9,746 bases of DNA. Source: Xanthobacteraceae bacterium. GTDB taxonomy: Bacteria > Pseudomonadota > Alphaproteobacteria > Rhizobiales > Xanthobacteraceae. Each line of letters opens with the position of its first letter. The first letter of the stretch is position 1. The notes under the pieces were generated by a model. It made no database searches, had not been told where the DNA came from, and worked only from the letters and a program-made list of their open reading frames with translations. Position numbers and translations under genes: made by a program. Below are positions 1 through 9,746 of this stretch, in pieces. The stretch is from the NCBI GenBank assembly GCA_030037185.1, contig JASHRR010000206.1:1-9746 (forward strand), written 5' to 3'.

Positions 1-1
1 G

Positions 2-208
2 CTGCGCTGGTTTGCGGAGGTGTTGAAAGTCGGAGACGTGCCTGGGCTTGACGTGCCCGGTATCGACTTCCTCTCCCTCGCCAAGGGCTATGGCGTGGAG
101 GGCGTCCGTACCGCTACGGCCGACGGCCTCAAGCAGGCGCTGACAGCTGCGCTCGGCTCGCAAGCTCCAACCCTGATCGAGGTGCCCACCCTCGCTGGGG
201 GATTCTGA
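2..208 (+). CDS. mdlC: Benzoylformate decarboxylase, C-terminal end (partial)
   Basis: This is the last 68 codons of a gene that begins before the window, read in frame from base 2 to a TGA at 206-208. Visible stretches include LRWFAEVL, the VPGLDVPGIDF segment, LAKGYGVEGVR and a final PTLIEVPT. From memory these match the C-terminal part of benzoylformate decarboxylase, a thiamine-diphosphate enzyme that converts benzoylformate to benzaldehyde and CO2 in the mandelate pathway. The GYGV and LIEV elements are shared with other ThDP decarboxylases and acetolactate synthases, so a relative such as a 2-oxoacid decarboxylase is the main alternative. The catalytic histidines and most of the ThDP site are outside the window, so activity cannot be judged. 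No gene follows on the same strand; the next identifiable sequence is the IS630 remnant in the opposite direction. Confidence 0.8.
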   Translation: MRWFAEVLKVGDVPGLDVPGIDFLSLAKGYGVEGVRTATADGLKQALTAALGSQAPTLIEVPTLAGGF

Positions 209-250
209 GGAAGCCAGCCATCGCTGCTTATCCTGCTTATCTGGCATATA

Positions 251-323
251 GGACCCATGTGCTGGGGAGCGAGCGCACGGCGGCATTCAGTTCTCCTCGC
301 GTCGCTTTGCTCCCCTCGGGTCC
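251..323. repeat. Nested inverted repeat downstream of mdlC
   Basis: Two pairs of arms are nested. The outer arms are GGACCC (251-256) and GGGTCC (318-323); the inner arms are GGGGAGC (264-270) and GCTCCCC (309-315). All 13 pairs are perfect and separated by a 38-base centre. It lies between the end of mdlC and the end of the IS630 transposase. It could form a long hairpin in the mdlC transcript, or belong to the terminal region of the IS. It is not a textbook terminator, since no U-run follows directly; the nearest T5 is at about 350-355. A 9-bp tandem repeat CTGCTTATC occurs just before it (224-232 and 233-241). Confidence 0.4.
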
Positions 324-362
324 TCGGCGCCCTTTAGACTTAGACGGCCTTTTTGAATTCGG

Positions 363-446
363 TCACTTGGCCCGGTCGAGCCCATAGGACCAGGTGTGAA
401 CGACCGGTTCCTGATTGTAATCCATGGCGGCGATGATGCGCTCCTT
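363..446 (-). pseudogene. IS630-family transposase, C-terminal fragment
   Basis: Read on the minus strand from 446, this gives KERIIAAMDYNQ then EPVVHTWSY then GLDRAK and a TGA at 365-363. The AAMD(x)NQ-PVVHTWSY pattern is the usual C-terminal end of IS630-family DDE transposases. It has no start of its own. Its missing upstream part is at 3006-3200, and the two pieces are separated by the serine-recombinase element. Joining 446-445 (AA on the minus strand) to the GAG CTC at 3013-3008 restores E-L-K-E-R in frame. The IS end beyond the stop (209-362) could not be delimited because the opposite IS end is missing. Confidence 0.8.
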
Positions 447-465
447 AAGACACGAGTCATAATGC
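445..465. repeat. Left end of the recombinase element (attL core and arm)
   Basis: The TT core at 445-446 is followed by nine element bases (AAGACACGA, 447-455) and then the arm GTCATAATGC (456-465). The reverse complement of the right end has CAGAATGGC then GACATACTGC at the same distance from its TT. The arms match at 8 of 10 positions, and the AGA next to the core also matches. This is a plausible half-site for recombinase binding. Confidence 0.6.
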
Positions 466-472
466 ACCTCCT
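447..472 (-). promoter_or_regulatory. Stranded ribosome binding site and start codon of ORF1 at the element's left end
   Basis: On the minus strand, 7 bases after the recombinase TGA (481-479), there is a perfect AGGAGG (472-467). Six bases later comes ATG (460-458), then ACT CGT GTC TT up to the element edge at 447. In the integrated state this reads out of the element into the IS630 remnant, out of the transposase frame, and stops at a TGA at 289-287, giving a 57-codon hybrid peptide. If the element circularises through its TT core, the same ATG runs in frame into the small ORF at the other end (M-T-R-V-L-T-E-W-R-H). This is the best candidate for the true translation start of that ORF. Confidence 0.65.
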
Positions 473-478
473 CTTAAC

Positions 479-2533
479 TCATTGAAAGTTCAAGACCTGC
501 TGATCGGGATTTGGTGTTAGCGGAGGGTTTGATCGCTTGCGGCCATTGAAGTCGGTCAGATCCGCAACCTTGATCACCCAGGGAGCACCTGGACAAACTT
601 GCCGGCCCTTGATGTCGCCACGGCGAAGCATGCGCAGCGCCGTCATATTGCATACCCCGATGATTTTCGCAGCCTCTTCGAGCGTGATCTCGCCGCGTTC
701 AGCCCATTCGCCGTCGCGGTGGCGCGCAATCTCGTGGTGATAGCGGAAGTTGCATACGCGCTGCCTCGTCCACGCACCATATGTGGCCGCAATGCCGATG
801 CGATTGAGTAGGCGTGCAATCTGACAATCCGGCATCAGTCGGGCTAACTCACGCATGAGCAGGATCGTGTCGTGCGGAATGCGTGGATTGGGCTGACCGG
901 CTGCATTCAGCCGCTGCTCCAGGCGCAGCTCAGTATGGTCACCGCCTTGCCAGTGCAGGACTGCATGAATGATCGCGCCGTCGCGACGCACGATGACTTC
1001 CGTGAGCGCAGTGCGCAGAATACGCTTGCGCGTTGCAGCCGTCGCGCCGGGATGCAACCAGGCGCGCTCGAGATCGGCACCGAGCGCGATGAGTTTCTGC
1101 CGCTCTGCCTCACCAAGCGGCGGCGGACGATGCGCGATCATGGCTGCGATGTCGCTCTCGATCTTGGCAACCGTCTGCAAAGCTTCATTCCATCGGCGCT
1201 CCAGCTCGCTGGCGACGAGCCGATTGGCGGGATCAACAGCATCATATTGTCGACGGGCGTGGGCGACCTCATACCGAGCCTGCTGCAGGGAAAGTTCTAG
1301 GTGCCGCTCAGCCGCCGTTGTCTCACCCGACTGGGCTTCGATCGCCTTGACTGCGGCTTCCGTGCCGAGTGGCTTGAGGACGCGCAGAACCTCCGTGGCG
1401 ACCGGCGCGTCAATACTCAATCCACTCACCGATATGCATCGTTTGGTACCGTTGTCCATCACCGCGCCGTCGCAGCAGTAGCGACCAATCTTGCGGCCGT
1501 AATGCACATGGAACTTGCGACCGCAGTGGCCGCAGCGCAGAAGTCCAGACAGCAGCAGCTCACCTTCACGAGCTGCTCCGCGAGCCAGCGCGCTGGTCAT
1601 GCGGGTCGCGTTGTTGGCAATTGTTTTGAGGTTGCGTTCGAACTCATCCCAGCTGATGTAAGCGGCGTGGTGATCCTTGATCAGCACATCCCATTTATCC
1701 ATCGGCTGGTTCACGCCACGACGAACGCGCTTGCGACCATCCACCACGGTGATGAGGCTCGTCGTGCGTCCGAACGCATAAGCGCCAGCATAAATTGGAT
1801 TGACGAGGATGTTGTACACGATGCTGTAAGCCGGCAAGCGCCACACGACGCTGTGTGCCTCACCCCCACGCGATTTGACGGGCAATTCGATCCCTTCGTC
1901 TCTGAGCCAGATATGCACTTGCCGCACACTCCGGAATTCGGCGAATTTTGTGAAGACGAGTTGAATTGCCTCCTGCACGCGGCTGTCAGGACTCTTCTCG
2001 ATCTGGCCTCGCCTGACTTTTACATAGCCCGCCGCGACATTGAGAACCAGCACCCCGCGGCGTGCCATCTGGCGCAAGGCCGCCTGCGAGCGTTGACGGA
2101 GCAGCGACAATTCAAGTTCGCTCATCGTCCCCTTCATGCCGAGCAGCAAGCGGTCGTTGGGCGAGCGTGGATCGTAGACGCCGTCCTCGTCGACGAGGAT
2201 GGCGCCGACCAATCCACAGAATTCGATGAGTGTGTGCCAGTCGCGACCGTTGCGAGCGAGACGTGAAGCCTCGATCGCGAACACCGCACCTACACGACCG
2301 GCACAGATCGCGGCCAACAGTCGCTCGAAGCCTGGACGCGCTATGCCGTCACCCGATCGCCCGAGATCGTCGTCGATGATCTCGACAGTCGTCCAGCCAA
2401 GCTGCTTCGCACGGTCGGCAAGCGAATATTGTCGTCGCTGGCTTTCAAGATTGTGCACCAGCTGATCCGGCGTTGATTGACGGATATAAACGCAAGCGTT
2501 GCGCTGTAGATGCTCAGCGGTGATCTTGCTCAT
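479..2533 (-). CDS. Large serine recombinase with zinc ribbon, likely transposase of the element
   Basis: The 684-residue protein catalyses DNA strand exchange through a serine-DNA intermediate. The N-terminal resolvase-type domain (about 15-155) has YIRQS with nucleophile Ser20, then ESQRRQ (30-35), DDDLGRSG (54-61), EASRLARN (88-95) and the ELELSLLRQRS helix (139-149). A recombinase domain follows (about 165-315), then a zinc ribbon (Cys334-x2-Cys337, Cys353/354, Cys366), a coiled-coil stretch (about 405-465) and a C-terminal helix-turn-helix-like segment (about 614-662, ITLEEAAKIIGV). No catalytic residue seems lost. I chose the ATG at 2533 over the in-frame GTG at 2548 because GGGGAGA sits 6-7 bases before the ATG and the GTG lies in that same stretch. 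The ATG shares ATGA with the ORF1 stop and overlaps ORF2 by 20 bases, so translation is probably coupled. It most likely inserts and excises this element. Confidence 0.92.
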   Translation of the reverse strand: MSKITAEHLQRNACVYIRQSTPDQLVHNLESQRRQYSLADRAKQLGWTTVEIIDDDLGRSGDGIARPGFERLLAAICAGRVGAVFAIEASRLARNGRDWHTLIEFCGLVGAILVDEDGVYDPRSPNDRLLLGMKGTMSELELSLLRQRSQAALRQMARRGVLVLNVAAGYVKVRRGQIEKSPDSRVQEAIQLVFTKFAEFRSVRQVHIWLRDEGIELPVKSRGGEAHSVVWRLPAYSIVYNILVNPIYAGAYAFGRTTSLITVVDGRKRVRRGVNQPMDKWDVLIKDHHAAYISWDEFERNLKTIANNATRMTSALARGAAREGELLLSGLLRCGHCGRKFHVHYGRKIGRYCCDGAVMDNGTKRCISVSGLSIDAPVATEVLRVLKPLGTEAAVKAIEAQSGETTAAERHLELSLQQARYEVAHARRQYDAVDPANRLVASELERRWNEALQTVAKIESDIAAMIAHRPPPLGEAERQKLIALGADLERAWLHPGATAATRKRILRTALTEVIVRRDGAIIHAVLHWQGGDHTELRLEQRLNAAGQPNPRIPHDTILLMRELARLMPDCQIARLLNRIGIAATYGAWTRQRVCNFRYHHEIARHRDGEWAERGEITLEEAAKIIGVCNMTALRMLRRGDIKGRQVCPGAPWVIKVADLTDFNGRKRSNPPLTPNPDQQVLNFQ

Positions 2534-2696
2534 GGATGCTCTCCCCACTTCTTACGTTGGCCAGCGTCGCTGCGATCTCGCGGAGCAGAGCTTCCACGAG
2601 GCTCACGAGTTCGACCCTGCAAGCCGGGCACAGCTTCACGAGCGGCTTCTCCTCGTCGAACAGGCTTGGTTGCGGATGTTCGGATTTGCGGTCCAT
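2514..2696 (-). CDS. Small protein ORF2, overlapping the recombinase start
   Basis: This ORF encodes 60 residues starting MDRKSEHPQPSLFDEEKP, with one CPAC motif and a hydrophobic helix (VSLVEALLREIAATLANV). Its composition is balanced and protein-like, unlike the arginine-rich frame that overlaps it. A weak GGAG lies about 10 bases before the ATG. The stop is 20 bases inside the recombinase gene, which favours coupled translation. It lies wholly within the C-terminal third of ORF1 in another frame, so either the two genes truly overlap or only one is translated there. I do not recognise a named family. A role as recombinase accessory or directionality factor is possible from position alone. 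Confidence 0.5.
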   Translation of the reverse strand: MDRKSEHPQPSLFDEEKPLVKLCPACRVELVSLVEALLREIAATLANVRSGESIHEQDHR

Positions 2697-3005
2697 TGTA
2701 GGCTGTCTCCGCCTCTGATTCGGACAGGAGAAAGCCTAGGAGCGCATCGACCTCGACACGAATCGAGCGCAGAATATGTAGTGGAAAACGCGGCTCATCG
2801 CCGATCTCGAAACGAGATGCTGCCGGTTTAGTCATCCATGCCGGAAAGCTCGCGAATGAGCCGTCGGGTTGGACCAGGACAACGAATTCGCAGCTGCCGC
2901 GTTCGAACCGCCGTCTGATCCGAACCAGTTCTCCAAAGCGCGGATGGAACCGGTAGGTGATACGAGCTTCTTCTGGCTGTTCGTGGGCAGTATGTCGCCA
3001 TTCTG
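2530..3005 (-). CDS. ORF1 body, recombinase-associated small protein (DUF5372-like), lacking its start in this state
   Basis: The frame is open from the element edge (3005) to a TGA at 2532-2530, which overlaps the recombinase ATG as ATGA. The core reads EARITYRFHPRFGE, RIRRRFERG, QPDGSFASFPAWM, then FEIGDEPRFPLHILRS and VDALLGFLLSESE. It resembles, from memory, the small DUF5372-type proteins found beside such recombinases; its function is unknown. No ATG or GTG occurs in frame near its N-terminus inside the element. The frame extends by chance into the flank to a GTG at 3030 with no evident ribosome binding site. In a circular form the start at 460-458 would join it through the TT core, giving MTRVLTEWRH... 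and a 163-residue product (14+2+476 bases = 164 codons with stop). The last 55 residues are arginine-rich and overlap ORF2. Confidence 0.6.
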
Positions 3006-3007
3006 TT
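2987..3007. repeat. Right end of the recombinase element (attR core and arm)
   Basis: On the plus strand the arm GCAGTATGTC occupies 2987-2996, followed by nine bases (2997-3005) and the TT core at 3006-3007. Its reverse complement is the imperfect counterpart of 456-465. The equal 9-bp spacing from both cores independently supports the chosen boundaries. Confidence 0.6.
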
Positions 3008-3200
3008 GAGCTCTTGTTTGGATGCGACACGGATATGACGCAAAACGGAGCGGGCGAGTTTGGAGAAGAAGCCCTCGATGAGGTTGACAGGAGCCGTGGG
3101 TGGGGGTGAACGTGAATTCGAAGCGGTGCGCGGGCTGCTCCGCCACCCAGGCTCTGGTCTCTTTTGAGATGTGCGCGGAATGATTATCGGAAGGCGCCAA
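3006..3200 (-). pseudogene. IS630-family transposase, internal fragment with frameshift
   Basis: Read on the minus strand, the fragment gives SDNHSAHISKETRAWVAEQP, FEFTFTPTHGS, then after a frame change NLIEGFFSKLARSVLRHI and RVASKQEL up to the element edge. DNxSAH carries the second and NLIE the third acidic residue of the IS630 DDE triad. The expected TGG CTC AAC (W-L-N) reads TGTCAAC, so 2 bases are missing at about 3086-3089 and the gene was already broken. The first catalytic aspartate and the whole N-terminal half are absent beyond about 3190. The C-terminal end is at 363-446. The ATG at 3200 is fortuitous. Confidence 0.8.
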
Positions 3201-3262
3201 GCGAAGTTGGCGCGATCAGTCGGTGCAAGTCCGACCCAGGCAATGCCCAGCAGGCAGCCTGG
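3194..3262 (+). other. Structured RNA-like segment, possible group II intron remnant
   Basis: Three hairpins follow one another. The first is GCGCCAA/TTGGCGC (3194-3200 with 3207-3213). The second is GTCGG/CCGAC with loop TGCAAGT (3219-3223 with 3231-3235). The third is CCAGGC/GCCTGG (3236-3241 with 3257-3262), enclosing TGCC/GGCA (3244-3247 with 3253-3256). The phrase GGTGCAAGTCCGACC followed by TGGTAGCGAGTG, and the GGCGACGGCGGCC that comes later (to about 3300), remind me of the 5' domain of bacterial group II introns. No intron-encoded reverse transcriptase is present, and neither the intron 5' end nor a domain V was found, so at most this is a fragment. It abuts the broken end of the IS630 pseudogene. 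Confidence 0.35.
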
Positions 3263-3575
3263 TAGCGAGTGTTGCGTGAGCCGACGGCGACGGCGGCCAC
3301 GAAGCGTACACAGCGGGTGCGTGGGGTGTGTGAGAGAGCCACGAAATATTTCGCGGTCGTCTAGCATATCCGATGCGCTGCCGGCCGGCAGCCGTGCATG
3401 GCGTTAAATTCAAACTCGCGTGCGAAGTCCGCATCAATGCCGGGCGCAGGCGGCAGGGCGGAGTTGAATGCCGCAATCGGCGAAATGCTCAGGCACCCAA
3501 CGCACAACGAGCGATCCATCGCCTCGGCCGCACACGCCGCCAGCTGCTGGAACAACTTGGATCAGCCGGCATCCG
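3263..3575. other. Intergenic stretch without recognisable gene
   Basis: Open frames exist on both strands (for example 3361-3555 minus and 3398-3625 plus), but none shows a family motif or a convincing ribosome binding site, and they contradict each other. The region separates the efflux operon end from the IS remnants and is probably decayed mobile-element or gene debris. No clear intrinsic terminator for the efflux operon is visible just after 3576. Confidence 0.5.
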
Positions 3576-5102
3576 TCATCCCTCAACTGCGGTCGCGTGC
3601 GCGGTCGATCCGGTCGATCTCTTGAAAATGACGAGCAGCGCAAACAGAGCCAGCGTGGCGATCAGCAGCAGCTTGTAATCATCAATATACGCAATTACTT
3701 GCGCCTGCTGCGTGACCAGGGCATCGAGCGCCGCTCGGCCGGCATCGGTAATGGGGCTCAAAAATTGTCTGACGGTCGGATCGTCGAAGGCGCGATTGAC
3801 TGGGGTGACGTATGCCGAGATGTCAGCGTGGTTGACCTCGGTGTTGGTGGTCAACAACGCGGTGAAGGCGGAAATGCCGACGCTTGAGCCCAAGCTACGC
3901 GAGAGGCTGAAAATGCTCGCGCCATCCGCGCGATCCGGCGGAGAGAGCGTGGATAAGGTGACGGCACTCATGGGGACAAAGAGAATGCCGAAACCTGCGC
4001 CTTGCAACAGCCCGGCAATGATAATTTCCTGCGCTGGAACGTCTGGGGTCCATCCCGTCATCACATAGAAGGCCCAAGCGGAAAACCCAAGGCCAACTGC
4101 CAGCAGCAGACGTGTATCGACCTTTCCGACGAACCGGCCGACGACCAACGTGGCCACCATCGTTCCCACGCCACGCGGTCCCATCACCAAACCGGCGGTG
4201 AAAACCGGGTAGTTCATGAGGTTCTGCAGATAAGGGGGCTGCAGCGCGAGCGAGGCGTAAAGCGTGATGAAGGCGACAAGGCTGAAGATCACGCCGGCGG
4301 AAAAATTGCGATCGCGAAACAGCGCCGGCCGCATGAAGGGCCGCTCGGCTGTGAAGGTGTGAACCAGAAACAGATAGAACGCCGAGCCAGCAACGAGCGC
4401 TTCAATGACGATTTCGCTTGAACCAAACCAATCCTTGATCTCACCGCGGTCCAGCAGGATCTGCAGCGCACCAATTGCCAGGCTGAGAGTGCCAAAGCCA
4501 AACCAGTCAAATTTATGCGGTTCGCTTCGTGGGCTCTCTGGCAGAAAAACGATCATGCCTAGAGCGGCGATGGTTCCCAGCGGGCCGTTGATATAGAACA
4601 CATAACGCCAACTGTAATCTTGCGTCAGCCAGCCGCCGAGCACGGGGCCGAGCACCGGACCGACTACAACGCCAAGGCCGAACAGCGCCATCGCGAATCC
4701 GTGGCGTTCTTTCGGGTAAATTGTCAGCAAGACTGTCTGCGACAGCGGTATCATCGCAGCCCCGAACGCGCCCTGCACCAGCCGGAAAAGGACAATCTGT
4801 GTGAGCGACTCAGCCATTCCGCAGAGCATGGAGGCGATCGTGAAGCCGAGCGTAGAGATGATAAACAACCGCTTGAGACCAAAGCGCGCAACCAGAAAAC
4901 CGGTCGGCGGCGTCATGATCGCAGCCGCGGTGATGTAAGAGGTCAGCACCCAAGTGATCTGATCCGGGCTTGTCGCGACGCTTCCCTGCACATAGGGCAA
5001 AGCGACATTGACAATTGTCGTGTCGAGCGTCTGCATCGTCGCTGCAAGCAGCACCAGGACCGTGGTCGTGCCGCGATTGCGTTGGGTTGCGTTTTCGGCC
5101 AT
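3576..5102 (-). CDS. emrB: EmrB-type multidrug efflux transporter (MFS, DHA2 family)
   Basis: A 508-residue inner-membrane proton antiporter of the 14-helix DHA2 family, which exports hydrophobic drugs or natural products. Diagnostic elements are LDTTIVNVALP in helix 1 (26-36), the loop GFLVARFGLKR (68-78, motif A), the RLVQG segment (107-111) with a helix-4 arginine, and GLGVVVGPVLGPVLGGW (142-158, motif C of antiporters). Many hydrophobic segments follow, to a last helix at about 483-498. Length is normal for the family. The ATG at 5102 has GGAG 7-8 bases upstream. It begins 22 bases after the adaptor gene stop, so the two form an operon. An aspartate usual in many motif-A loops is alanine here (Ala72), which DHA2 members tolerate. 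The substrate cannot be told from sequence. Confidence 0.93.
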   Translation of the reverse strand: MAENATQRNRGTTTVLVLLAATMQTLDTTIVNVALPYVQGSVATSPDQITWVLTSYITAAAIMTPPTGFLVARFGLKRLFIISTLGFTIASMLCGMAESLTQIVLFRLVQGAFGAAMIPLSQTVLLTIYPKERHGFAMALFGLGVVVGPVLGPVLGGWLTQDYSWRYVFYINGPLGTIAALGMIVFLPESPRSEPHKFDWFGFGTLSLAIGALQILLDRGEIKDWFGSSEIVIEALVAGSAFYLFLVHTFTAERPFMRPALFRDRNFSAGVIFSLVAFITLYASLALQPPYLQNLMNYPVFTAGLVMGPRGVGTMVATLVVGRFVGKVDTRLLLAVGLGFSAWAFYVMTGWTPDVPAQEIIIAGLLQGAGFGILFVPMSAVTLSTLSPPDRADGASIFSLSRSLGSSVGISAFTALLTTNTEVNHADISAYVTPVNRAFDDPTVRQFLSPITDAGRAALDALVTQQAQVIAYIDDYKLLLIATLALFALLVIFKRSTGSTAHATAVEG

Positions 5103-5124
5103 GGTACTACTCCGATAAGAACGA

Positions 5125-6357
5125 TCAAAACAGTGCAGTCAGGAGGTGCGGCAGGCCACGCGTGTGGCCGGTATCAACATCGATTTCCACGCTCATCCCG
5201 GTCCGCAGCGGCGGCATCAGGCGATCACTCGTGTCGATGCGCACGCGCAGCGGGATTCGCTGGACGACCTTGACCCAGTTGCCGCTCGTGTTCTGCGCTG
5301 GCAGAAGCTGGAATTCCTGTGCGCCGGCCGGGCTGATGCTTTCAACGATGCCATGCCATTGGACGCTGGGATAAGTATCGACGTTCACCGTCACCGGCTG
5401 TCCTGGACGCACATAGGTCATCTCGGTTTCTTTGGGATTGGCCTCGACCCAGGCGTGGTCGGTGGCAACCAGGAAGAACGCAGTCACTGAGGCTGCCAGA
5501 AACTTGCCCGGTGCGATTGCGGGCACGTTTGTGACGGTTCCAGCGAACGGCGCCTTCACCACCGTGTGGTCAAGCTCGCGTTGAGCTTCATCGACCTTTG
5601 CCTTGGCCTCCAGGTATTGCGGATGCTGCGCGGTCTCGATATCGGCATTGCCGCCGAGCCGGGCCAATTGCGTTGCCGCCTGTTGCTCCAGCGACTCAAG
5701 CTTACTCTTGTCGTTGAGCAGCGTGTAGTGCGCGTTATCGAACGTAGCCTTTGACGCCGCGCCAGAGGGCAGCATCATCTTTTGACGATTGAAATTGATC
5801 TGGTCGAGATCGACCTGCGCCTGCTCGGCCGTAACGTCGCTGAGCACGCCCTTGTAACCTTGCTTCAGTGCATCGATCGACAGCGCAGTCTCGGCGAGAT
5901 TTGCTTTCGCGTTGTTGAGCGCGATTTGGAACTGGAGCGGGTCGAGCCGGTAAAGAACCTGCCCTGCCGATACATGCTCATTGTCGTGGACACCGATATC
6001 CTGAACGATACCGGAAACGTCGGTTGAGATGCCGACCTTGTCGGCGTCGACATAGGCATCGTCTGTCGACATGAACCGGCCACCGGTCGCGTACCAGTAA
6101 GCGCCGACACCCGCAGCGATCGGCAGCAGGGCGAACAATGCCCATCGGACCCTCTGCCTTCCCGCCGGACGCGACGGGCGATTTTCAGCGGCTGCCGTCG
6201 CGTCGGCCCGCTTCTCAAGCGGCGTGATCGAGGGCAGTTCACGACGCTCGATGCGCAACTCAGCGATTCTGTCAGCAGCCGGCGAGCTGCTTTCGACTTC
6301 ACGCTGCAACTGCACTCGTTGATCATTCGAACGCTCAATTTTCTCAGCTTTAAGCAT
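5125..6357 (-). CDS. emrA: EmrA/HlyD-type periplasmic adaptor protein
   Basis: A 410-residue membrane fusion protein that links the EmrB pump to an outer-membrane channel. A single membrane anchor (about 72-90, WALFALLPIAAGVGAYWYA) is followed by STDDAYVDAD (97-106), the first half of the lipoyl-like domain (PDQ-like GQVLYRLDP at 132-140), a long alpha-hairpin (about 145-265), the second lipoyl half (VVKAPFAGTV, 266-275) and a beta-barrel with the family phrase AGAQEFQLLPAQN (344-356). I preferred the ATG at 6357, which has GGGAG 7 bases upstream, over an in-frame TTG at 6420. The cytoplasmic N-terminus of about 70 residues is charged and longer than in enteric EmrA. No outer-membrane channel gene is adjacent, so the partner is encoded elsewhere. 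Confidence 0.92.
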   Translation of the reverse strand: MLKAEKIERSNDQRVQLQREVESSSPAADRIAELRIERRELPSITPLEKRADATAAAENRPSRPAGRQRVRWALFALLPIAAGVGAYWYATGGRFMSTDDAYVDADKVGISTDVSGIVQDIGVHDNEHVSAGQVLYRLDPLQFQIALNNAKANLAETALSIDALKQGYKGVLSDVTAEQAQVDLDQINFNRQKMMLPSGAASKATFDNAHYTLLNDKSKLESLEQQAATQLARLGGNADIETAQHPQYLEAKAKVDEAQRELDHTVVKAPFAGTVTNVPAIAPGKFLAASVTAFFLVATDHAWVEANPKETEMTYVRPGQPVTVNVDTYPSVQWHGIVESISPAGAQEFQLLPAQNTSGNWVKVVQRIPLRVRIDTSDRLMPPLRTGMSVEIDVDTGHTRGLPHLLTALF

Positions 6358-6458
6358 GAGGAAGCTCCCGGCTGTTGGTTTTCGAAAGCGCTGCGTTCGA
6401 GCCGGGCTCCGGGTAACCAAGACCTACGCTCGTCTCGGGACATCGCCTCCCGAAATCA

Positions 6459-6487
6459 AATATGCGAACGCCGCCAACCTTTTTTAA
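6459..6487 (-). promoter_or_regulatory. Candidate promoter for the efflux operon
   Basis: On the minus strand, TTAAAA (6487-6482) and CATATT (6464-6459) are separated by 17 bases. Each matches 4 of 6 consensus positions of a sigma-70-type promoter. The ATG of emrA would be about 95 bases downstream. It is the only AT-rich patch in this stretch. The match is weak and unproven. Confidence 0.22.
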
Positions 6488-6966
6488 TCTGGTGGAATTG
6501 GAATGCTTTGTTCGTCACTGCTGAACAATCGACGTCGAGCGCGCCACCCGATCGGCACGAGGTTGTCACTGATGTGTTCGGTACGATCCGTTACCTATGT
6601 GTCCGGGCTGGACAAACACGGGCGTGCCTAAGGCGGCGTTCGGATTTGCACCGGGGACCGCGCGGCCGAGCCCGCGGACCCCCGCCAACGGCCGGTGCCC
6701 GAGGCCAGGTCAGGATGGGGGACTTCGGCGCCGGGGCGCCGGGCAAGTAGTAGCGTTCCCGGCTCGTGCCACAGCGCTAGCGGCTTCGGGCCGGCGGAGC
6801 TATCGCAGGCAGCCCATCGAGCTTGACGCGCAGTTTTTCGTAGACGGCACTCAGCATCGGCGCTTCATCAATGTGCTAGGGTTGGCACACCTCAGAGCCC
6901 CTCAGACGGAGTGCGGTGCCCCGGGGGCGCCTTCGAGGCACAAGCCGGCGCCGCTCGTTGGCGGGA

Positions 6967-6984
6967 CTCGCGATCGCGATGGCG
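6967..6984. repeat. Palindromic repeat copy 1
   Basis: CTCGCGATCGCGATGGCG matches copy 2 (7075-7092) at 17 of 18 positions. Confidence 0.45.
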
Positions 6985-7074
6985 TCGTCCGGCAGGGCTT
7001 TGCCGCCCCCGCTTGGCGACGCGCAGCCTCACGGCTTGGTCGCGCCAGTCAGGTTGAAGATCAAGGCACGCAAA

Positions 7075-7093
7075 CTCGCCATCGCGATGGCGA
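7075..7093. repeat. Palindromic repeat copy 2, containing an 18-bp perfect palindrome
   Basis: Bases 7076-7093 (TCGCCATCGCGATGGCGA) are a perfect palindrome. The sequence CTCGCCATCGCGA recurs at 7236-7248 within the lysR remnant. It could be an operator-like site or part of a dispersed extragenic repeat. Confidence 0.5.
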
Positions 7094-7121
7094 AGCGAAA
7101 TTCCGTCATCTCGTAGAGCGT

Positions 7122-7295
7122 GAAGGATGACGCTCCGGCTTCCCGTGCGGGAAACGTCCTGACGCAGCGCGACGTCGTCGTCTCCGGCCGGCGTACCGCC
7201 TCACCGAGCGCGGAGGTGCTGCTGCCGTTTGCCCGCTCGCCATCGCGAAAACCCCCGGCGCGCGCCACTGCCACGAGAGCGTCCAGGTAACCCAA
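7122..7295 (-). pseudogene. LysR-type regulator, decayed DNA-binding N-terminus
   Basis: The frame read from 7295 gives LDALVAVARAGGFRDGER, then ANGSSTSALGEAVRRPE and further on REAGASSF. This follows the LysR helix-turn-helix pattern (FxxVAxxGSFxxAAxxLxxSxSAVSxxIxxLE ... TxAGxxL). The distance from the Phe of GGF to the Glu of RRPE is 22 residues, as in the family. The usual Ala-Ala of the first helix is Gly-Glu, the Leu before Glu is Pro, and about 5 residues of the wing are missing. Nothing like the rest of a LysR protein follows. The possible start is a TTG (7295) just past the oxalate decarboxylase stop. It is best explained as a relic of a regulator gene; a chance resemblance is possible. 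Confidence 0.5.
7236..7248. repeat. Palindromic repeat half-copy 3
   Basis: CTCGCCATCGCGA is identical to the first 13 bases of copy 2; the second half is not conserved. Confidence 0.35.
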
Positions 7296-7310
7296 CCGGT
7301 CTTAGACCGG
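7296..7310. repeat. Palindrome over the oxalate decarboxylase stop codon
   Basis: CCGGTCT (7296-7302) and AGACCGG (7304-7310) form a perfect 7-bp inverted repeat around one base and include the TAA stop (7304-7302). The loop is too short for an ideal hairpin and no T-run follows on the minus strand, so a terminator role is doubtful. Confidence 0.3.
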
Positions 7311-8513
7311 CGTGCGGAAGAACGTAGAGTGGGCAGGGAAATTCTTGAACGTGTCGGCCGGCACGCCGAAATTGTTGGCAAGCAGGTGCGGCGGGCTGGC
7401 GGCGATCCAGTCGGTCAGCGAGATTTCTTCGTAATGGCCACCGTCGAAGGTAAGAACGATTTCCAGATCCTCGGTACCGGTATTGCGAATCGCATGGCCG
7501 TAGCCGGCCGGCAGATATGCCACGTCGCCAGGCTTGAAGTCCGCCACCTTGCTGCGCCCACCGGAGCCGAACAGCAGCACCTGGGCTTGGCCTCGCAGAT
7601 AGTAGTGCCATTCGTTGGCGTTTGGATGCCAGTGCAGCTCGCGCAGCGCGCCGGGCCTGATCGTCATCAGGCCGCCTGACATGCCCTGCGAGACCGGAAA
7701 CTCCTTCGCCGTCGCAAGGTACAGCATGCCGCCAGGGAATTCGTGCGTTGGCTGCTGCTGCATTAGGCTGTACTTGTGCGACTGTGCAGGCGGCAGCATA
7801 GATTCCTTCGCCTTATCCGCAGGCAGGATGTCACCTGCCATGATGTAGGTTTCGCCCTTGGGGAACTTGATGAAGATTTCCTTCGGCACGCCGAAATTGT
7901 CGGCCAGAATGTCTTGTGGCGTCAGACTCACCCAGTCGGTGATCGAGAACGTGCCGTGCTCGGAGAACGCGCCGTTGTCGAACGCCAGGATGAAATGGCA
8001 GGGCTTGTCGCCGATTGTCTGGATCGAATGGCCGTGCCCCTTCGGGAAATACCAGATGTCGCCGGGACGGAAGTTTGCAACTTCCTTCGTACCGTTCGGG
8101 TCGATCACCATGACCTGGCATTCGCCGTCGATGATGAAGGCCCACTCGGTGGCGATCGCGTGCCAGTGCAGTTCACGCGACGCACCGGGGTTCAGGTACA
8201 TGTGAACGCCGGCGATGCCTTTGCTAATGGGAAAGCCTTCGACCGCCGCCTCCTTAGCCCAGCCGCCAGAGGTGACTTTCGGCTTCGAGCCGTCGAGCGA
8301 GTAGCGGAAGTCCGGCATGGCCTCGATGTCGCCGGGTTTATGCTGCACCACGGATTCGCCGGGCGGGAGCCGCACGGCGTTGCGGCCGAAGCCGCCGTCC
8401 CCAGGACTGAAAACCGGCGCTTCTGCTCGCGCAAGATGCGTCAGTCCGACAAGTCCACCGGCACCAACCATTGCGGTGCCGAGAAAATCACGCCTGTTGG
8501 ATTTCATTTCCAT
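7302..8513 (-). CDS. oxdC: Bicupin oxalate decarboxylase, Tat-exported
   Basis: A 403-residue Mn-dependent enzyme expected to convert oxalate to formate and CO2. The N-terminus has a twin-arginine signal (NRRDFLG, 6-12), a hydrophobic stretch and ARA (28-30) as likely cleavage site, so it acts in the periplasm. Cupin 1 has metal ligands His116, His118, Glu123 and His162; cupin 2 has His294, His296, Glu301 and His340. Each is preceded by the substrate arginine of RELHWH (Arg113, Arg291). The lid loop that gives decarboxylase rather than oxidase activity in Bacillus OxdC (SENST) is SEHGT here (184-188), keeping the key glutamate (Glu185). The cupin 1 motif has four residues between His and Glu, against three in Bacillus as I recall it. 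The ATG at 8513 has GGGGGG 9 bases upstream; a second ATG is two codons later. It stands alone on its strand, followed by the lysR relic. Confidence 0.9.
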   Translation of the reverse strand: MEMKSNRRDFLGTAMVGAGGLVGLTHLARAEAPVFSPGDGGFGRNAVRLPPGESVVQHKPGDIEAMPDFRYSLDGSKPKVTSGGWAKEAAVEGFPISKGIAGVHMYLNPGASRELHWHAIATEWAFIIDGECQVMVIDPNGTKEVANFRPGDIWYFPKGHGHSIQTIGDKPCHFILAFDNGAFSEHGTFSITDWVSLTPQDILADNFGVPKEIFIKFPKGETYIMAGDILPADKAKESMLPPAQSHKYSLMQQQPTHEFPGGMLYLATAKEFPVSQGMSGGLMTIRPGALRELHWHPNANEWHYYLRGQAQVLLFGSGGRSKVADFKPGDVAYLPAGYGHAIRNTGTEDLEIVLTFDGGHYEEISLTDWIAASPPHLLANNFGVPADTFKNFPAHSTFFRTPV

Positions 8514-8799
8514 CCCAGCACGCCCCCCAGGGTTACGTCCCGGTATAGCTGACCGGGCGCGGTTGGCATGAGGTATACCAGAGGGGCCGGCAGATCAATC
8601 AGGCACCCGCGGATTCCGTTGCATTCGAAAAATCTCCCCTTGCCAGTGGTTATCGACCCCGAGGCGAGGCGTCCTCGATCCGGCCGCAGCGCCACGTCCC
8701 CAACTCGATCACCACGATCCGTCGCGAGCTGGCCGCCGCGATTGCGAACAGACTTCACAGATGCCCGCACTGTGTGCTCCGCATTCGCAGCAGTCAGAG
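8514..8799. other. Upstream region of the oxalate decarboxylase
   Basis: No gene is recognised. A minus-strand promoter for oxdC is expected here or slightly upstream. The nearest AT-rich patch is at about 8815-8830, where a perfect TATAAT occurs on the minus strand but without a good -35 element at standard spacing. GGTATACC near 8572-8579 is an isolated 8-bp palindrome. Confidence 0.35.
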
Positions 8800-9003
8800 A
8801 TGGAATTTCTGAAACATTATATTATCTGTCCGGCCCTTATTGCGCCCAATAAATGGCTATGCAGCCATTCGCCGGAGTGGGACAAGGATTTGGGGCTTGA
8901 ACTGTGCTTTAAGGCATTACGCGAGGCAGCCCACCATCTGATCGGAGGGCGGTTAATCGCCCATCGTGTGATCAAAGAGCATTGGGAGCGCAAGAACGAC
9001 TAA
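8800..9003 (+). CDS. Hypothetical 67-residue protein, doubtful
   Basis: From the ATG at 8800 the frame gives MEFLKHYIICPALIAPNKW, a middle with two tryptophans, and a likely amphipathic helix (GLELCFKALREAAHHLIGG) ending HWERKND. The composition is protein-like and codon use is less GC-biased than in the neighbours, which may indicate transfer or a non-coding origin. No good ribosome binding site precedes the ATG, although the frame is also open from 8761. No family is recognised. It is the only plausible coding frame between oxdC and the glutamyltransferase gene. Confidence 0.3.
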   Translation: MEFLKHYIICPALIAPNKWLCSHSPEWDKDLGLELCFKALREAAHHLIGGRLIAHRVIKEHWERKND

Positions 9004-9520
9004 GAACGTCATTGCCCTCCAACGACGACTGCGACCACCCAATGTTGTAATCGAAGCTTGTGGAGTAGCGACCCCGCCGGAAGACCGAATACGATGAGGA
9101 CAACGCCCCAGAGTACGAAAAATATCGCGAAGAAAAAGGGATCTCACGCCAGCGAAACCCTCAGACTTCGACCCCAAAATAAACAGTGAGTGATTACAAC
9201 GGCTCGTGCTGTTTGTGGGCCTGCCCCGCGTCGTACTCCGGCGCCTATCCCGCAGGGGTTGTACCCGCGCCCCCTGGGGAGACCTTGTTTTTACCGGGTG
9301 GGCGAGCCGGCCCGGGTGGTTGGCTTGCGTTCGGGGTTGAGCTTTTTTCTTCCTTTGAGAGCGCGCGCGCCAGAAATTAAGTTGTCCGGCGTTAGAGCGC
9401 ACGCCCGGATCTGCGCGCGGGCGGAGAGTCTCGTCCGCGACCATTGGGCCGCGGGGTCCCAGGCTCGCGGCGCGCGCGGAATTGAGATAGCCTTGCGCCT
9501 AACGCCACAAAAAATCGCAT
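9004..9520. other. Intergenic region upstream of the glutamyltransferase gene
   Basis: No convincing gene is seen. The left part (to about 9180) is moderately AT-rich; the right part is very GC-rich with alternating GCGCGCGCGC tracts near 9360-9371 and 9468-9478. The minus-strand frame at 8953-9444 is arginine-rich and lacks family motifs. Confidence 0.45.
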
Positions 9521-9534
9521 CCAACATTTGTTGG
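9521..9534. repeat. Short palindrome before the glutamyltransferase ribosome binding site
   Basis: CCAACA (9521-9526), TT, TGTTGG (9529-9534) is a perfect 6-bp inverted repeat about 5 bases before the GGGAGG. It could be an operator or a small hairpin affecting translation; this is inference only. Confidence 0.3.
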
Positions 9535-9554
9535 AGCCGGGAGGACAAGACGTC

Positions 9555-9746
9555 ATGATGGATTTCGTGATCCGTACATATTCGTTTGCCGCAGCAATGG
9601 CCTTATTGGCTGGAGCCTCGCCTTCCTGGTCGCAATCCGGCCCGCAGCTGTCGACCTGCGAGGCTCCCAAGGCAGCGGCCTGCGCGGCGGTGCGCGGTGA
9701 CCGAGCCGAAGGTTGGGTGGCGCAGAGCCGGGCGGAAGTGATGGCG
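9555..9746 (+). CDS. Probable gamma-glutamyltransferase, N-terminal part (runs off the window)
   Basis: The first 64 codons are visible. The start MMDFVIRTYSFAAAMALLAG and a likely signal cleavage near SPSWSQ point to export to the periplasm. Then come CEAPKAAACAAVRGDR and EGWVAQSRAEVMA. The GDR-x-EGW-x-x-QSR-x-EV-x-A sequence is, from memory, the region just before the NGMVATSQPLAA motif of proteobacterial gamma-glutamyltransferases, Ntn-hydrolases that cleave glutathione and transfer its glutamyl group. The catalytic threonine and conserved core lie beyond the window, so this is a moderate call. GGGAGG (9539-9544) lies 10 bases before the first ATG (9555) and 13 before the second (9558), which favours the first. 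Confidence 0.6.
   Translation, partial: MMDFVIRTYSFAAAMALLAGASPSWSQSGPQLSTCEAPKAAACAAVRGDRAEGWVAQSRAEVMA

Follow-up and report, generated by a model that had tools for sequence, protein, structure and literature searches.

A gene split between the two ends of an integrated element

Why would a mobile element carry the start of a gene at one of its ends and the body of the same gene, without a start, at the other? The question is raised by a serine-recombinase element on contig JASHRR010000206.1 of a Xanthobacteraceae bacterium (NCBI GenBank assembly GCA_030037185.1), which we analysed as a window of 9,746 nucleotides (positions 1 to 9,746 of the forward strand). The element lies on the minus strand at 447..3005, not counting its core copies, and is 2561 bp long with one AA core, an assignment based on empty IS630 sites and on length. 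The split gene, ORF1, would regain its start only when the two ends are joined in a circle. We think it likely that this arrangement is a state switch: the free circle would make ORF1 and express the recombinase fully, which would promote integration, and integration would then turn both off.

Read along the minus strand at the left end, the stop codon TGA of the recombinase gene (481-479) is followed after 6 bases by the Shine-Dalgarno (SD) sequence AGGAGG (467..472) and, after 6 further bases, by ATG ACT CGT GTC TTA (460-446). The calculated anti-SD duplex energy of this AGGAGG is -13.3, compared with -2.0 for the mirror arm. The ORF1 start and the codons next to it (ATG ACT CGT GTC T., 447..460, minus strand) point outward, and are followed by the left-end copy of the core dinucleotide AA, which occupies spacer positions 12-13 (445..446, minus strand); the right-end copy is at 3006..3007 (minus strand). 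Inward of this second copy lies the body of ORF1 (2530..3005, minus strand), which is probably related to DUF5372 and has no start: in the frame of 3006 there is no ATG from the right end to residue 58. Its terminal ATGA shares bases with the ATG of the recombinase gene (2533-2531). When the two ends in the window are joined, the ORF1 frame is open for 163 codons plus a stop. The recombinase itself (479..2533, minus strand) is a large serine recombinase of 684 amino acids, in which Resolvase, Recombinase and zinc-ribbon domains, all scoring over their cut-offs, are combined in one protein with a C-terminal helix-turn-helix. Almost none of the 2.6 kb is non-coding.

A first-pass annotation of the window had placed the start and AGGAGG at the left end, the startless body of ORF1 at the right end, and the ORF1 stop on the recombinase start, all of which can be read directly. 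The in-frame rebuilding that it described also stands, its figure of 164 codons being a count that includes the stop. It had pictured the joined form as a ring of coupled genes, and here the layout holds with one amendment: a second small gene, ORF2 (60 amino acids; 2514..2696, minus strand), which overlaps the last third of ORF1 and the start of the recombinase gene, lies between the two. Its element boundaries are borne out by empty sites, because 29 of 30 related IS630 loci in Bradyrhizobium genomes continue through the insertion site without interruption, mostly with the sequence GARCTCAAGG there. The alignment of these 29 empty loci across the site gives AA, or TT when read on the plus strand, as the core that the ends share. 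The interrupted gene, which we take to be that of an IS630 transposase, has its 3' end at 363..446 (minus strand), read directly and continuous in the empty sites, and its 5' side, a fragment, at 3006..3190 (minus strand), with matches in 40 of 195 Bradyrhizobium genomes.

Joined frames in related elements

Relatives were drawn from plasmids (527 matching records, of which eight were fetched first), species-level genomes (the best 80 of 570 loci), one viral contig and multi-copy replicons. By eye, most of 90 loci have an SD-like sequence and a motif resembling GCATTATG just after the recombinase stop, and a profile detected ORF1 in 83 of the 90. We located the arms of the attachment (att) sites by a search that was blind to the ORF1 frame, joined the ends at a fixed spacer of 24 nt, and called ORF1 open if it ran for at least 140 codons. 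Both arms were recognised in 89 loci, which fall into 52 clusters at 90% recombinase identity; 26 further loci with a long recombinase frame and no recognisable end or arm lie outside this set. Tests of starts, SD sequences and the ORF1 tail were run on 48 representatives.

The distance from the start codon to the opposite att arm is 24 nt in the relatives, with the crossover core at spacer positions 12-13. At this spacer the joined ORF1 is open in 84 of the 89 loci (49 of 52 clusters), compared with none of 89 at 23 nt and one of 89 at 25 nt. Three of the five misses (L086, L115 and L118) are mis-picked arms that give an open frame once corrected, the frame of L007 never meets a stop, and only that of L087 ends early, at codon 119. 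Because the recombinase site itself fixes the 24-nt spacer, the independent evidence comes from the variable stretch inward of the arm: the distance from arm to recombinase is the same modulo 3 in 84 of the 89 loci, among which it takes 16 values, from 443 to 521. The more distant elements that were joined are built in the same way. In two sister families with 34-35% recombinase identity (L222/L223 and L224/L225), the central bases of the ends agree and a scripted join is open at 24 nt for 106-108 codons, versus 22-41 codons at 23 and 25 nt; in a third, with 38% identity (L232-L234), reading by hand found an SD-like stretch, an outward ATG and a joined frame in frame. The first-pass annotation had proposed that related elements be checked for in-frame joins, and on this comparison of sequences the split-ORF1 layout is a family trait.

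The ends also locate the crossover. The left half-site GCATTATG (458..465, minus strand), which overlaps the ORF1 start codon and is conserved in relatives, mirrors the right half-site CATACTGCC (2986..2994, minus strand), which reads H-T-A in the ORF1 frame. The two ends of an insertion match best in the exact middle of the spacer, at position 12 in 59 and at position 13 in 55 of 75 loci; among the 52 representatives the ends agree at these positions in 46 and 44, and at the next best position in 35. On a S. medicae replicon, six copies with five distinct left flanks have right ends that are alike through position 13 and left ends that are alike from position 12, the dinucleotide common to both being TA. 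As in large serine recombinase elements, the crossover falls on a dinucleotide midway between two half-sites, with no target duplication. Recombinase work could make use of these elements, whose att sites, with a 24-nt spacer and a dinucleotide at its centre, can be read straight off. In two other multi-copy sets read by hand, the central dinucleotide differs between the ends of one insertion (L092, L093, L115, L118 and L119), a difference that would be left if mismatched cores had recombined and been repaired afterwards.

ORF1 as a protein and its coupling to the recombinase

We compared codon positions in 66 pairs of ORF1 sequences, into which 39 of 83 sequences fell. Third positions account for a share of 0.61 of the differences in the ORF1 domain and 0.53 in codons 13-20; beyond the first ~100 codons no selection at the codon level was seen. 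A structural model, predicted with confidence, gives ORF1 a small SH3-like barrel with helices. The DUF5372 (PF17342) profile matches the ORF1 of one relative over the family cut-off (L006, 25.6 bits; cut-off 25) and that of another at 20 bits (L003), gives no match in L095 or L119, and does not list the ORF1 of the window at E 0.1. One database record (P0167) gives DUF5372 the additional name Y4bD/Y4pK, and a sister-family recombinase of S. fredii has a DUF5372 gene three genes upstream. We found no paper on the function of DUF5372, y4bA or y4bD/y4pK/y4pH in the open-licence literature.

The last third of ORF1, which overlaps ORF2, has no codon signal of its own (0.29). It is open across ORF2 in 45 of 48 representatives, versus 9.9 expected from synonymous shuffles of ORF2 with codons drawn from the recombinase of the same element; the third frame is open in 2, versus 7.0 expected. 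The ORF1 stop lies on the recombinase start as ATGA in 68 of 89 loci and as a one-base overlap in 12. The open tail fits selection for ribosomes that would run from ORF1 into the recombinase. An alternative that we hold possible, if unlikely, takes this further: the joined gene would mainly deliver ribosomes to the recombinase, and the ORF1 protein would be secondary. Such a leader gene is compatible with a switch and differs in what is switched. It accounts for a tail kept open without codon-level constraint and for a stop placed on the recombinase start in 80 of the 89 loci, but it sits poorly with an ORF1 domain that is conserved as a protein and has a confidently predicted structure.

Serine integrases work with small accessory proteins that act as directionality factors; the PDB, for example, holds the SPbeta integrase YokA joined to YotN, which is its directionality factor. 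ORF1 could in the same way be a factor needed for excision, with its expression from the joined form incidental. We find this doubtful, because a factor made only from the circle would come after excision, and because the fold and sequence matches listed include no known factor, although that does not exclude one.

Start signals in joined and integrated forms

At the ORF1 start the median anti-SD energy is -7.35, versus -2.35 for the mirror arm, with the stronger pairing at the ORF1 start in 45 of 48 representatives (P = 2 x 10−8); an energy of -7.35 is reached by 5% of random 16-mers. In the integrated form, an in-frame ATG between the junction and the domain occurs in 2 of 48 representatives and an ATG, GTG or TTG in 14, with an SD sequence before such a start in 2. 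On the host side of the junction, 40 of the 48 have no in-frame ATG before a stop, and 4 have an ATG or GTG with an SD sequence. Six integrated, annotated copies that we inspected have no annotation for ORF1; a hypothetical protein is annotated at the position of ORF2 in 6 of 8 plasmid relatives. Judged by its codon differences and start signals, ORF1 is selected as a protein yet rarely has a start in the integrated form.

One database protein has the N-terminus expected of the joined form. Among the 198 ORF1 relatives listed (120 of 240, plus 71, plus 7), P0134 starts exactly nine residues before the H-N-A motif, with the sequence MKQARAKQR HNAG. The prediction for the joined form of L047 is MKRARAKQR HNAG, with which P0134 agrees at 12 of the first 13 residues. 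P0134 comes from a single metagenome contig of 2719 bp, about the same size as the L047 element (2597 bp), and would fit a circle assembled with a short end repeat. The first-pass claim that ORF1 is made only from the joined form gains indirect support from P0134 and from the scarcity of starts in integrated copies; expression confined to the circle is what we infer from the two. Two other listed proteins are of note. A partial ORF1 from Paraburkholderia aspalathi (P0193) lies on a contig of 2551 bp whose first base is roughly at the core position, equivalent to about one element cut at the junction. The N-terminus of P0049, MHYDSCPHTTREQ, looks as if the left arm had been read in a different frame and fused to the right arm with a short spacer between them, perhaps a deleted junction.

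Several observations weigh against a junction start that switches ORF1 and the recombinase. The other 197 of the 198 listed relatives do not begin at the predicted start. The joined-site pattern of the window type, allowing up to 2 mismatches, is absent from the 195 Bradyrhizobium genomes, exact joined-site patterns are absent from viral contigs and from 234 fetched loci, and no circle was seen directly. A search of 300-3200 for sigma-70-type promoters, the one promoter type covered and in the integrated form only, found none, with 0.9 expected by chance. A strict search for SD words was positive in only 28 of 48 representatives. The recombinase gene is itself preceded by a good SD (median -9.9) and so need not depend on ORF1. 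The start position holds a non-start codon in four of 89 loci (L012, L055, L057 and L085), all of which have an in-frame ATG 9 nt upstream; these upstream ATGs lend little support, because as many as 68 of 89 loci carry a GTG or ATG in frame at -9, and the true start of ORF1 in many members may be this -9 codon, in the same frame. Lastly, the ATG of ORF1 is part of a palindromic half-site. Because it lies in a conserved start region whose GCATTATG part has a mirror image at the opposite end, the conservation of this ATG is little proof by itself, and because codons 2-9 show no third-position bias (0.24-0.31), the junction codons appear to be held as att DNA and not as protein.

Taken to its limit, this last point would make the ATG-like sequence only a recombinase half-site (GCATTATG mirrored by CATAMTGCC), the in-frame join a side effect of common descent and of an attP whose geometry is fixed, and ORF1 a remnant. 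The mirrored arms, the fixed 24-nt spacer and the missing codon-position signal in codons 2-9 agree with this. We nevertheless judge it very unlikely, since SD pairing is strong on one arm only, the ORF1 domain is under codon-level selection, the frame is kept in 84 of 89 loci while the arm-to-recombinase length varies, and the tail is kept open. Very improbable, too, is that ORF1 is made from integrated copies, as a host-frame fusion or from weak internal starts, and that the junction start matters little: the listed database proteins do mostly start in host-derived frames or inside the domain, and 14 of 48 representatives have a possible start codon before it, but such N-termini vary with the target and were presumably chosen by the gene caller, and starts with an SD sequence are as rare as the counts above indicate, both on the host side and internally.

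The switch that we favour would work as follows, if the element forms circles in this host. attP would lie within the first nine codons of the element's own ORF1. The joined form would be a closed ring of genes (recombinase stop, SD, ORF1, ORF2, recombinase), in which ORF1 ends on the recombinase start. When the circle recombines with a host site, in many cases within a gene of another mobile element, ORF1 would be cut between start and body, so that the integrated copy would make no ORF1 and would lose the translation coupled into the recombinase. The free circle would make ORF1 and more recombinase, favouring integration.

Insertion sites and neighbouring features

By a motif script, 23 of the 48 representatives lie antisense within the gene of a P-loop ATPase, which we read as IstB of IS21, and 2 lie in a tyrosine integrase gene; the other 23 received no label. 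By hand, L115, L118 and L119 were read as sitting in an IS66 gene. The family (L003-L006, L015-L039 and others) seems to live in genes of other mobile elements. In B. erythrophlei GAS478 (G001, reached via L009) there are 56 recombinase matches, including partial ones, with several multi-copy families side by side.

The last 20 codons of the recombinase (479-540 in the window, and the equivalent in relatives) vary little at fourfold sites (0.25, versus 0.58 overall), and the 3' end of the gene holds a conserved block, about CTTTGA-TTTCAATGACATAG, which is perhaps a promoter or an extra binding site. Elsewhere in the window, the genes at 3576-6420 and 7302-8513 look like an efflux pair of the EmrAB type and an oxalate decarboxylase of the bicupin type.

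Comparison with known systems

We found no description of this split-gene arrangement among the open-licence papers that our searches listed. Precedents do exist, at the level of a gene in archaeal suicidal integrases and mycobacteriophage immunity, and at the level of a promoter in TnpX, ICEclc and ICEKp1. The suicidal integrases of SSV1, pTN3 and pT26-2 are tyrosine recombinases whose own gene is split by integration and rebuilt in the circle (PMC8371274). Like them, the element in the window has its integration site inside one of its own genes, which integration splits and the circle would rebuild. Unlike them, it has a serine recombinase that is not split, and what integration parts from its start and SD is an accessory gene; with an intact 684-aa frame the element does not belong to that group. 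In the integration-dependent immunity of mycobacteriophages, the integrase is a tyrosine integrase and the repressor gene loses its 3' end, the integrated form being the active one (PMC9262239). The phage attP lies inside a gene cotranscribed with the integrase, and integration changes a protein and acts as a switch (PMC9262239), features that the element in the window would share. Here, in contrast, the recombinase is a serine recombinase, attP is in the 5' end of ORF1 and it is the 5' end that is lost, and the element falls outside that class as well.

ICEclc and ICEKp1 have state-dependent integrase promoters (PMC13023037). In these elements and in Tn4451, whose TnpX is also a large serine recombinase, joining of the ends switches on expression from the circle, as proposed here; they join a promoter to the recombinase or integrase gene, whereas here a coding sequence with its SD is joined. 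IS607 has a small serine transposase with an inverted domain order, and the element is not a member: it scores 22.5 bits against a cut-off of 110 with NF033518, and its catalytic domain is N-terminal in a 684-aa protein. To DUF5372 the element is linked by an ORF1 relative that scores over the family cut-off and by the presence of such a gene near the recombinase in a sister family.

We lean towards the view that these elements represent a widespread class of bacterial serine-recombinase elements, with attP in the first codons of a DUF5372-type gene, which integration disarms and circularisation re-arms. The gene would then be a post-transcriptional sensor of the excised state, and the class a bacterial counterpart of a kind of gene splitting that has been described as exclusively archaeal. 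If this is true, the switch would require no regulator, since recombination itself would remove and restore the start of a gene. It would explain why ORF1 is missing from annotations of integrated copies, would give DUF5372 a testable role, and would suggest how an element of 2.6 kb with so little non-coding DNA tells its free from its integrated state.

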